A DNA stretch of 64,000 nt from Candidatus Krumholzibacteriota bacterium (GTDB taxonomy: Bacteria; Krumholzibacteriota; Krumholzibacteriia; Krumholzibacteriales; WJIX01): assembly GCA_034520215.1 (NCBI GenBank), contig JAXHNR010000001.1:982560-1046559 (forward strand), given 5' to 3'. This document shows positions 5,930 through 10,176 of the stretch, piece after piece. Position 1 is the stretch's first letter. Every line of letters begins with the position of its first letter. The notes under the pieces are model-generated. The model was given only the letters and a program-made list of their open reading frames with translations, did no database searches and was not told where the DNA came from. Made by a program: the position numbers and the translations under genes.

Positions 5930-7384
5930 TTAACCTTTTCTTAATTTAGGGTATTTGTCCAGGTTGCCCGCGGAGGCGGCACTCAGGAATGAATCTAACC
6001 ACCAGTATATATCATATTTCTGAATAGATTTCTGCAATCTGCCCATTTGTTTTTTTCTTTTTTTCAAGCTCATATTAATAGCTGAGTAAATAGCATCTGC
6101 CACTTCATCTATATTATATGGATTTACAAGCAATACATCATCCTTCATCTGTGAGGCGGCTCCCGCGAATTCACTTAGGATAACAGACCCTGATTTTTCA
6201 ATGTTAGACGCGCAGTATTCCTTCGCTATTAAATTCATTCCATCCTTTAAAGGAGTTATTAAAGCAATTTCTGCGGTTCTGTAGTACGCGAGAAGCTCGC
6301 TTCTTGGCAAGGACCTGTGAATGTAATGTATTGGAACCCAGCCCGATCTTGTGTATTGGCCGTTAATTTCACTAATCAGATGTTCGATATTAAGCTTAAG
6401 TTCTTGGTACATAGGAATATTGCGTCTGCTCGGCACTACAACCTGAATCAGAGTTACTTTTCTATGGAGTTCCGGATGAGTCAACAGGAGCTTACAAAAT
6501 GCCTGAAGCCTGTATGTAATGCCTTTCGTGTAATCAAGGCGGTCGATTCCAAGAATTAATTTACTGTTAGGTATGTCCTCATGTATAAACCAGGCATGAT
6601 CAGCGACGGTTTTTGATCTTGCCATCTTAGAGAATTCATTGTAATCGATACTTATCGGAAAACTACCTATCTTTAGATTCTTATCACCTGCAAACACGTT
6701 TATAAACTTTCCGTTTTTTCTTGTTTTAGCGCCCTTGATAAATGTTTCAAGACATTGAATGAAATTTCTACTATCCCGTTCGGATTGAAAGCCTATTAGG
6801 TCGTAATCAAGTATGGCGAGAAGAATCTCTTTTCTCCAGGGAAGCTTGGAAAAGATGTCGAGGGGGGGGAATGGTATATGAAGATAAAAGGCCAGGTTAT
6901 TTTCAAAATTTTCCGCACGGAGATATTTGGCGACACACATAAGGTGATAATCATGAATCCAGATAAAGTCGTTTTGTTTTGTTGTTTTTTTCAGAACGGA
7001 AGCGAATCTTTCATTAATCAATTTATAGAATTTCCAGTAGTCAGGATCAAAATTGCAGTATGCCTGAAGATCATGGAATAAAGGCCATATTACTTCGTTC
7101 GAAAAGCCCTGATAATATTTCTGTACTTCTTCTTCAGTCATCTGTACGGCTTCCATCTTGTATCCGGCTTTTTCTGAAGCAGCGTTTAATGAATCGGAAA
7201 TGTCTGTAATTTCAAATGTGCCCGGCCACCCTACCCATAGCCCCCCTCTGTCTCTGAGAACAGGCGCGAGTGCCGTAACCAGGCCTCCTGATCCGGGTTC
7301 TACTTTCCAGCTCCCGTCAACTTTTTTAAAGACAAACGGGAGTCTGTTTGATGCAATCACAAGTCGTTGAGAAGAATCATTCAT
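5930..7384 (-). CDS. otsA: Trehalose-6-phosphate synthase
   Basis: A 484-residue GT20 enzyme that joins glucose from UDP- or ADP-glucose to glucose-6-phosphate. Key motifs are intact: IASNRLPF at the N terminus, the PGSGGL donor loop near residue 32, IHDYHLM near 143, HIPFP near 167, DRLDYTKGI near 280, and KDGMNLIAKEY near 377. The length is typical of bacterial OtsA. It is the last gene of a minus-strand operon and its start overlaps the end of otsB by 8 bases, implying translational coupling of synthase and phosphatase. Confidence 0.95.
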   Translation of the reverse strand: MNDSSQRLVIASNRLPFVFKKVDGSWKVEPGSGGLVTALAPVLRDRGGLWVGWPGTFEITDISDSLNAASEKAGYKMEAVQMTEEEVQKYYQGFSNEVIWPLFHDLQAYCNFDPDYWKFYKLINERFASVLKKTTKQNDFIWIHDYHLMCVAKYLRAENFENNLAFYLHIPFPPLDIFSKLPWRKEILLAILDYDLIGFQSERDSRNFIQCLETFIKGAKTRKNGKFINVFAGDKNLKIGSFPISIDYNEFSKMARSKTVADHAWFIHEDIPNSKLILGIDRLDYTKGITYRLQAFCKLLLTHPELHRKVTLIQVVVPSRRNIPMYQELKLNIEHLISEINGQYTRSGWVPIHYIHRSLPRSELLAYYRTAEIALITPLKDGMNLIAKEYCASNIEKSGSVILSEFAGAASQMKDDVLLVNPYNIDEVADAIYSAINMSLKKRKKQMGRLQKSIQKYDIYWWLDSFLSAASAGNLDKYPKLRKG

Positions 7385-8174
7385 AATTAGTTTCTAACGC
7401 TCCTGCCAATTCGTTCAAGAAATCAAGTAGTTCACCGGGGGGTTTTAACCAGATATCTGCCTCCGTTGAACGGTATCGGGGTTTAGCTAGAACAGAGAGT
7501 CCTTTTCCCTTGAGAGCTCTGAAAGCATCTTCGTCGGTAAAATCGTCCCCCATATATATTACAGGTATTTCTTCCCGGTATTGATTCAAAATGGAATCCA
7601 CAACATTTCCCTTGGTAATATTTTCCGGTCTAATCTCTATGCCACCGTCAAATTCGGAAATTGTCAAGTCATTTTTTTTAATAATATTCTCCCACATGCT
7701 TACAACTCTTTTTTTAAGATTATAAATTTTACTTGATGACAGCTCGCGCCAATGTAGAGCGAGTGAAGAATATTTCTGCTCACATCTTTTCCATAACCCC
7801 TTCTTTATAACCGCTTCTTTCGCTTCCTTGAGGCCATTTATTGTCTGCCGGGAAAGTTCTGTTGTCAGAAGATTGCCATCTTCGGTTATTTTCTCAGCTC
7901 CATGACAGCCCCATATTTCCGGGTACTTTTCAAGATCAAGCAACAGCCGTATGTCGCTAACAGATCTACCGCTTACTATTATGATTTTGCAATTATTTAA
8001 ATCAATCAATTTAGTTAATATTTCTTTGATTCCTCTATACGGAACGGCTTTGGATCGTTTTTTTTTGAAAGGAGCAAGGGTACCGTCATAATCTAAAAGT
8101 ATAATTGTTTCGGGGGAGATTGAAACCCTATGGAGAAAACTGGTGAGGTTGATTCTATTATTCAAAACTTTCAT
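7377..8174 (-). CDS. otsB: Trehalose-6-phosphate phosphatase
   Basis: A 265-residue HAD-superfamily hydrolase that dephosphorylates the OtsA product to trehalose. The nucleophile motif LLDYDGTLAPF is near residue 27, the second HAD motif (SGRS) near 64, and the metal-binding GDDFTDEDAF motif near 210, all expected for TPP. Length matches the family. It lies 27 bases downstream of a TreT-like gene and overlaps otsA, so one transcript carries both the two-step and the one-step trehalose routes. Confidence 0.94.
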   Translation of the reverse strand: MKVLNNRINLTSFLHRVSISPETIILLDYDGTLAPFKKKRSKAVPYRGIKEILTKLIDLNNCKIIIVSGRSVSDIRLLLDLEKYPEIWGCHGAEKITEDGNLLTTELSRQTINGLKEAKEAVIKKGLWKRCEQKYSSLALHWRELSSSKIYNLKKRVVSMWENIIKKNDLTISEFDGGIEIRPENITKGNVVDSILNQYREEIPVIYMGDDFTDEDAFRALKGKGLSVLAKPRYRSTEADIWLKPPGELLDFLNELAGALETNYE

Positions 8175-8201
8175 AGTTATTGATAATCAAAGATTTGGCT
8201 G

Positions 8202-9443
8202 CTATTCCAGTTCAATTCGTTCTTCCTGCCCGCGCAGCAGGGAAACTATAACAGTCAAATATTCCCTTAGGTGTCTTGTGAGAAGAAAATTTTCAGTGAC
8301 GAAGCTTTTTGCCTTTTTCCCCATTTCATCCAGCCTGTCGCGGTGGAATAGGAGATATCGAGTTCTCAGCGCTGCTCCTTCAGGTGTTCTTACAAGAAAA
8401 CCGGTTTGATGGTTTACGACCTGAATGCGTATACCTCCCGTATCACCTCCAACAACCGGCTTTCCTTTCCACATTCCTTCCGTAACGGTGAGCCCGAATC
8501 CTTCACGCGTTGATTTCTGTAGTATGATATCTGAAGATCTTTGAAGAGCGTTTATTGTTCTGTGGGCATCTGATGGTAGAAGAAGAATATGAATGTCCGG
8601 ATCTTTCCCTGCGGCATTACGTACTTCATCAATCACCTTCTGAGATTCCGGGTCATCAGATGCTTCTCCGCCGGCGAGAATAAGCTGCAGGTCCGGGGCG
8701 AACTTCTTAGTAAGTCTGTATGCCTTAATAACGCCTACAGGATCTTTGAAATAGTCATACCGTGATACCTGAAGCATTGTTGGCCGATTAGTGTCGATGC
8801 CAAGGTCAGAGACTGTTTTTTCAATTTCATCTTCATCCAATTCAATGTTTTTCTCACTCAAGGGATCGATGCTTGGAGGAATCAGATATTGTATATGCGG
8901 TAGAACTTGAGAGAAGGCGGGAATCGAGAAGATACTGGCATCGTAGTTAATAATGTGTTTTTTGATGAACTTCCAGGTTGATCTGTTCGGGTGGCTTACA
9001 TCGATATGACAGCGCCATATCCATCTTCCTTTTCTATTAGGGAAAGAAGCTAATAAAGAAGCCGGCTGAGGATCGTGAATAAACACAATATCAGCGTCAT
9101 TCAAAGTGTCGCGCAGCCTGTGAGCGTTTTCCTCGTTAACTTTTTCGTATTCTCTTATCAGGTTTTTCTGTATTTTGATATCTTTTCCCTGCAGCCCGTT
9201 GTGGAAATTCTTTGTGCATTTGAAAAACTTAGGCGATCCTTCTATAACTTCCCAGCTGACATTGATGCCAAGTTCCTTCTTAAGCGGAATAAGTTTGTTT
9301 AGAATTTCCGCTACTCCGCCTCCCTGTCTTGTAGAGTTTACGTGTACGACTCTGATATCTTTCAGAAGCGCGGCAAGTTGATGAAGCTGATTTATTACTT
9401 CTTCTCCAACAATTTCGGAGTACTGTTTGAGCATTGTACTCAT
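8202..9443 (-). CDS. treT: TreT-like trehalose synthase (GT4, nucleotide-glucose + glucose)
   Basis: A 413-residue GT4 protein. The N-terminal HVNSTRQGGGVAEIL segment (residues 34-48), EVIEGSPKFFKCTKNFHN, IHDPQP near residue 125 and the donor motif REGFGLTVTEGMWKGKPVVGG near 320 are the pattern of TreT, the trehalose glycosyltransferring synthase first known from Thermococcales, which makes trehalose from ADP- or UDP-glucose and free glucose and can run in reverse. The assignment rests on remembered family motifs and on the flanking otsB and otsA genes. The start touches the preceding gene at one base (9443), suggesting tight coupling. Confidence 0.85.
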   Translation of the reverse strand: MSTMLKQYSEIVGEEVINQLHQLAALLKDIRVVHVNSTRQGGGVAEILNKLIPLKKELGINVSWEVIEGSPKFFKCTKNFHNGLQGKDIKIQKNLIREYEKVNEENAHRLRDTLNDADIVFIHDPQPASLLASFPNRKGRWIWRCHIDVSHPNRSTWKFIKKHIINYDASIFSIPAFSQVLPHIQYLIPPSIDPLSEKNIELDEDEIEKTVSDLGIDTNRPTMLQVSRYDYFKDPVGVIKAYRLTKKFAPDLQLILAGGEASDDPESQKVIDEVRNAAGKDPDIHILLLPSDAHRTINALQRSSDIILQKSTREGFGLTVTEGMWKGKPVVGGDTGGIRIQVVNHQTGFLVRTPEGAALRTRYLLFHRDRLDEMGKKAKSFVTENFLLTRHLREYLTVIVSLLRGQEERIELE

Positions 9444-10117
9444 TATCCACTCTCCACGAAGTAATTCTTAACTATATTTGCCAGTTGAGATCTAAGTTCT
9501 GTAAGCGAGGAAAAAAAAGGATCTATATTTGATAAGAGGTGTATCAACTCATCGTACTTTCCCTCAAAACCGTATAACCATGTACTAAAATCGTCAATAT
9601 TACCATAGGTTCTTCTTCTCGAGTCGATAAAATGGTAGAAGATGCTGCTCGAGGTCATATTGGGAATGGCATCAACTAAATCACCAGCTTTATAAATGGT
9701 TTTATTAGTGTCGAAGACAACTATTTGAGATGTTATGAAATGAAATTGTTCATCGATCTTACACCATGCAAAATGTTGAAGTTCATCCAGCCTCGCTTCA
9801 ATAATTTCAAGTAATCTTTCACGGAGTTTTTCAAGATCCGGGTATTCTGTAGGATCAATAATTCCAATTTGTTCCGCCAGAACCTTGTCATGCAGCGTGT
9901 GTCTTATCCAGGAAGCAAAATCGTTGTTATATTCAGGGTCATCGAATCTCGGCTGGAGAAGATTTCCCCAGAAATGATAGTATAGGCTTCCCGATTCCAC
10001 TTCCCCTATATTACGGTTGAGTTCTTTGAGATTTTGCGATTTTTTGCCTGTCGCCAGTGATGCTAAAGCGCAGTCCTTTATTTCGAAAGTTTTATTTGTA
10101 TTTTTTCCTTCAGGCAC
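9443..10117 (-). CDS. Duplicated-domain protein linked to trehalose genes (DUF5752-like)
   Basis: A 224-residue soluble protein starting at GTG (10117 on the minus strand) behind AAGGAG. I recall it as resembling DUF5752, a family often seen beside TreT, but could not search. The two halves resemble each other: SGSLYYHFW (residues 42-50) with TSSSIFYHFI (155-164), NDFASW (65-70) with DDFSTW (175-180), IDP (87-89) with IDP (198-200), then a closing LEKLRERLLEI / LTELRSQLANI helix. No catalytic motif is obvious. As first gene of the treT-otsB-otsA operon it may control or assemble trehalose enzymes; that is inference. Confidence 0.7.
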   Translation of the reverse strand: MPEGKNTNKTFEIKDCALASLATGKKSQNLKELNRNIGEVESGSLYYHFWGNLLQPRFDDPEYNNDFASWIRHTLHDKVLAEQIGIIDPTEYPDLEKLRERLLEIIEARLDELQHFAWCKIDEQFHFITSQIVVFDTNKTIYKAGDLVDAIPNMTSSSIFYHFIDSRRRTYGNIDDFSTWLYGFEGKYDELIHLLSNIDPFFSSLTELRSQLANIVKNYFVESG

Positions 10118-10176
10118 CTTTGCTCCTTGAAATCAGCTAACTATAAATAAATCATCAGGTACTTGTTACTGTCACT

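Follow-up and report, generated by a model that had tools for sequence, protein, structure and literature searches.

Trehalose is a stress-protecting sugar. The four gene families considered here are already known, as are organisms using several trehalose routes (PMC1769515, PMC7688234). The nearest precedent is Thermoproteus tenax, which has the trehalose glycosyltransferring synthase TreT and a trehalose-6-phosphate synthase/phosphatase (TPS/TPP) route, both of them synthetic, and no known trehalase (PMC3634074), besides the protein OrfY (PDB 4CSO); the operon that encodes its fused TPS and TPP (TPSP) also includes genes for a PimA-like glycosyltransferase (GT) and a mechanosensitive channel but no TreT (PMC3634074). 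Sulfolobus acidocaldarius combines TreT with other routes in one cell, including a GT4-type TPS, Saci_1249, and the TPP Saci_0016 encoded elsewhere, and its three routes all feed the trehalose pool (PMC7688234), while Rubrobacter xylanophilus appears in a citation within PMC3308980 as a further organism with TreT plus other routes in one cell. Here we consider a 64,000-nucleotide stretch of a Candidatus Krumholzibacteriota genome (the window; contig JAXHNR010000001.1, positions 982,560 to 1,046,559), whose minus strand carries, at 5930-10117, genes for DUF5752, TreT, OtsB and OtsA, head to tail in transcription order. This cluster is probably a trehalose-production operon comprising two synthesis routes and a dedicated TreT partner.

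The initial annotation had proposed that the genes are separated by fewer than 30 bases or overlap, and that two trehalose routes lie in one cluster; both proposals held. The stop of DUF5752 and the start of TreT have one base in common (TAATG, junction -1), 27 bases separate TreT from OtsB, 8 bases are shared by OtsB and OtsA, and the adjacent TreT and OtsB/OtsA genes match the families of the two routes. All four families exceeded their Pfam cut-offs in profile searches, and family searches of the genome returned one copy of each. Since tight spacing is retained in relatives, where DUF5752-TreT junctions are mostly -4 to +3 and OtsB-OtsA junctions mostly -8 to +13 (approximate lengths, taken from the nearest start codons), the packing is not a matter of chance. 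The flanking genes run in the opposite direction, the four-gene unit is therefore self-contained, and its genes may be carried on a single transcript. The single candidate promoter proposed earlier fared worse: the region holds 17 promoter-like matches against 12.4 (standard deviation 3.7) in shuffled sequences, no clear excess, and further matches of the same scan fall within the operon itself. A scan of the minus strand of the region for terminator-like sites found none. The GTG start of DUF5752 is supported by the AAGGAG that precedes it.

The GT4 protein had been called TreT, an assignment that the phylogeny upheld. In a 77-row tree, a clade of 74 rows, separated from the outgroup with support 100, contains the window protein together with the characterised enzymes of Thermoproteus uzoniensis (PDB 6ZJ4) and Pyrococcus horikoshii (PDB 2X6Q). 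The window TreT matches both over its full length (E 1e-124 and about 50% identity to the former, E 6e-110 and 46% identity to the latter), whereas other solved GT4 structures gave weak matches confined to the C-terminal half. It combines an N-terminal TreT_GT1 domain (PF21269, 192 bits) with a C-terminal GT4 domain (PF00534, 80 bits), and it has this GT4 affiliation and its catalytic motifs in common with the TreTs of T. tenax and T. uzoniensis: SRYDYFKDP and EGFGLTVTE are intact, and at the donor-site motifs SR...K and E-x7-E residues R228, K233, E314 and E322 are invariant in the alignment and S227 nearly so. Within the clade it groups with T. uzoniensis rather than P. horikoshii (support 96), a placement that depends on the outgroup, a single lineage on a long branch; in the tree so rooted, the P. 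horikoshii/Thermococcus litoralis type, although of the same family, lies outside the DUF5752-linked clade.

The other two enzymes are the same as in Escherichia coli, where otsB also precedes otsA with an overlap, although that organism's operon has neither TreT nor DUF5752 and its OtsA belongs to a separate lineage. OtsA in the window retains R9, G22, Y76, W85, D130, H154, R262, K267, R300, D361 and E369 (E. coli numbering), all 11 active-site residues of the E. coli enzyme that could be placed, W40 not being placeable with the numbering used. An identity as glucosylglycerol-phosphate synthase was ruled out (332.7 bits, against 526.9 for TIGR02400). OtsB scored 100.9 bits with TIGR00685, over the cut-off of 68.05, and has the TPP motifs DYDGTLAP, SGR and GDDFTDED. 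Some observations speak against a two-route operon: the 526.9 bits of OtsA are just under the NCBIfam equivalog cut-off of 564.85, which is a naming threshold and no biochemical feature; and donor and acceptor specificity is not readable from sequence, as illustrated by the GT4 relative Saci_1249, which acts as a TPS rather than a TreT (PMC7688234), although it is only distantly homologous.

Table 1. Features of the trehalose gene cluster, with positions counted from the first base of the window
Feature	Coordinates	Strand	Description
DUF5752 / OrfY-like	9443..10117	-	224 aa, GTG start; PF19027 268.7 bits
TreT, trehalose glycosyltransferring synthase, GT4	8202..9443	-	413 aa; PF21269 (TreT_GT1) 192.3 bits
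OtsB, trehalose-6-phosphate phosphatase, HAD	7377..8174	-	265 aa; PF02358 (Trehalose_PPase) 86.7 bits
OtsA, trehalose-6-phosphate synthase, GT20	5930..7384	-	484 aa; PF00982 (Glyco_transf_20) 474.4 bits
Promoter-like site GTAACA-18-TATAGT	10140..10169	-	9/12 matches; unproven candidate
Ribosome-binding-like AAGGAG	10123..10128	-	precedes GTG start of DUF5752

The DUF5752 protein is a tandem duplication of a domain of about 100 residues, the halves aligning at 99.5% probability. Its AlphaFold2 model (pLDDT 93) has a sole significant PDB match, OrfY of T. tenax, with which it has fold and length in common (Foldseek E ~1e-12, TM 0.77-0.79, 27% identity in the alignment); the two also match by sequence (phmmer E 2e-20). 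OrfY was labelled a transcription factor by its depositors, whereas the protein encoded in the window has an acidic pI of 5.0, close to the family median of 5.1, and its gene is packed against TreT, which makes DNA binding doubtful. It would more probably be a partner of TreT, or a regulator of that enzyme, than a protein that binds DNA, and pairwise distances of DUF5752 correlate with those of TreT at r 0.91, as compared to 0.76 between TreT and OtsA. A search of plasmids for DUF5752 did not find it; the literature searched does not mention it, and OrfY was met there in one paper, as an uncharacterised superfamily only. Several genomes of the phylum encode proteins of about 990 residues with receiver and PPDK_N domains and one weak DUF5752-like repeat (L102:2106-5072, L100:1211-4192).

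Conservation of the cluster was surveyed in 80 Krumholzibacteriota genomes. TreT was found in 24 and GT20 in 25, both being present in 23 (Fisher p 1e-16, a value that overstates independence since the genomes are related); GT20 thus accompanies TreT in 23/24 genomes, as against 2/56 of those without it. The four-gene order, a survey of which had been proposed, is retained on one contig in 15 genomes, two of them cut at the contig end inside OtsA, and 2 more, split by contig ends, are compatible with it. OtsB is missing at the cluster site of 1 genome, while 4 others (1 of them split) have the order OtsA-OtsB-DUF5752-TreT; elsewhere TreT adjoins a fused OtsAB with DUF5752 absent (1 genome) or DUF5752-TreT occurs without OtsA (1 genome). 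In genome G002 a further DUF5752-TreT pair occurs at another site (L104:2416-4372), flanked by open frames without a Pfam match.

In other genomes, DUF5752 lies directly before TreT in 42 of 63 loci; two of these loci are apparently identical to records of the phylum survey (genomes G033 and G031). The complete four-gene order recurs in Muiribacterium, a Zixiibacteriota and a deltaproteobacterial genome; outside the phylum the pair has OtsB-OtsA downstream, another OtsA lineage upstream, or TreZ/TreY as neighbours, and in some loci it stands with TreZ, GlgX and TreY. In cyanobacteria a GH37 trehalase gene is directly upstream of DUF5752-TreT (L018:3486-5039, with BLAST relatives in L019 and L052), in L018 itself behind a TreY gene. 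Several trehalose gene sets, namely the OtsA lineages, TreZ/GlgX/TreY and trehalase, have therefore been joined to this pair. What the initial annotation had missed is that DUF5752 accompanies TreT constantly, whereas OtsBA is the part that can be exchanged.

That two trehalose gene sets met by chance and were kept by descent is most unlikely. A single event could explain inheritance of the cluster inside the phylum, but linkage arose with TreYZ too, and the two OtsA lineages involved show opposite gene orders. OtsA downstream of TreT and OtsA upstream of DUF5752 belong to different lineages, among which the references from E. coli, Deinococcus, mycobacteria and yeast fall, and a single clade for all linked OtsA was rejected (AU p 1.9e-6, on a tree with few references and some long branches). 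Mapped on the TreT tree, OtsA adjacency changed at least 9 times and DUF5752 presence at least 2 times. That distant bacteria arrived at the pairing independently, with different gene versions, suggests that the two routes are genuinely linked in function, and it draws attention to DUF5752 as a small uncharacterised partner.

Another explanation is that the proteins make up one trehalose synthase complex, where OtsA and OtsB would be activated by the GT4 protein together with DUF5752, as the T. tenax GT does with TPSP. TPS activity in T. tenax needs the GT4 protein, the interaction having been detected by yeast two-hybrid (PMC3634074), and the tight gene coupling retained in relatives would fit. 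However, the activator in T. tenax resembles PimA instead of TreT, and activation in that organism required a fused TPSP (PMC3634074), whereas here the GT4 protein is TreT with its motifs intact, OtsA and OtsB are separate, and many relatives carry DUF5752-TreT without OtsA, which makes this arrangement very unlikely. Two further neighbours were observed: a very long PEP synthase-like protein of about 1400-1480 aa encoded opposite DUF5752-TreT (L007:7799-12241, L011:7748-11992), in which no DUF5752 repeat was found, and, in Methanomethylicota, a second, distant GT4 (27% identity) near TreT (L042:11059-12210), possibly a GT4-type TPS like Saci_1249.

In the two-route operon that we favour, OtsA would form trehalose 6-phosphate from nucleoside diphosphate (NDP)-glucose and glucose 6-phosphate and OtsB would remove the phosphate, while TreT would make trehalose directly from NDP-glucose and free glucose. 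Both routes would be produced together from one tightly coupled cluster, perhaps induced under stress, so that trehalose could be obtained from glucose 6-phosphate and from free glucose alike, with DUF5752 serving as a dedicated TreT partner or regulator, probably at the protein level.

The net direction of TreT, presumably synthetic in such an operon, bears on another explanation, in which irreversible OtsBA synthesises trehalose and TreT, running in reverse with NDP, takes the place of a trehalase by giving back one glucosyl unit in the form of NDP-glucose. The initial annotation had suggested such a reversal, and had supposed that the cell might choose between the routes. The genome search found no GH37, GH15 or GH65, a single GH13 that is GlgB-like, and no TreS or TreY, in a genome 97% complete and with part of the trehalase families covered. 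TreT is therefore the only detected enzyme able to break trehalose; the T. litoralis TreT is reversible (PMC1769515), and DUF5752-TreT is repeatedly linked to a complete synthesis route. The partial coverage of trehalase families and the incomplete genome nevertheless weaken that argument, as does the rooted tree, which places the window TreT with T. uzoniensis and not with P. horikoshii. For T. tenax, it is reported that TreT works in one direction only and that trehalose is not broken down (PMC3634074). In the cyanobacterial relatives the adjoining trehalase means that breakdown need not involve TreT. We consider this recovery role possible but rather unlikely. Little probability attaches to a broader proposal, that DUF5752-TreT is an add-on to whichever de novo route is present, with DUF5752 switching the direction of TreT and activated sugar being stored and recovered without trehalase.

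In the literature searched, neither the DUF5752-TreT module nor its recurrent attachment to OtsBA and TreYZ was found described, which is weak evidence; apparently, this is an undescribed recurrent arrangement of known families. What looked like redundancy becomes a testable rule, namely that many bacteria pair TreT with DUF5752 beside another trehalose route, and the uncharacterised DUF5752/OrfY family gains a specific partner for testing.
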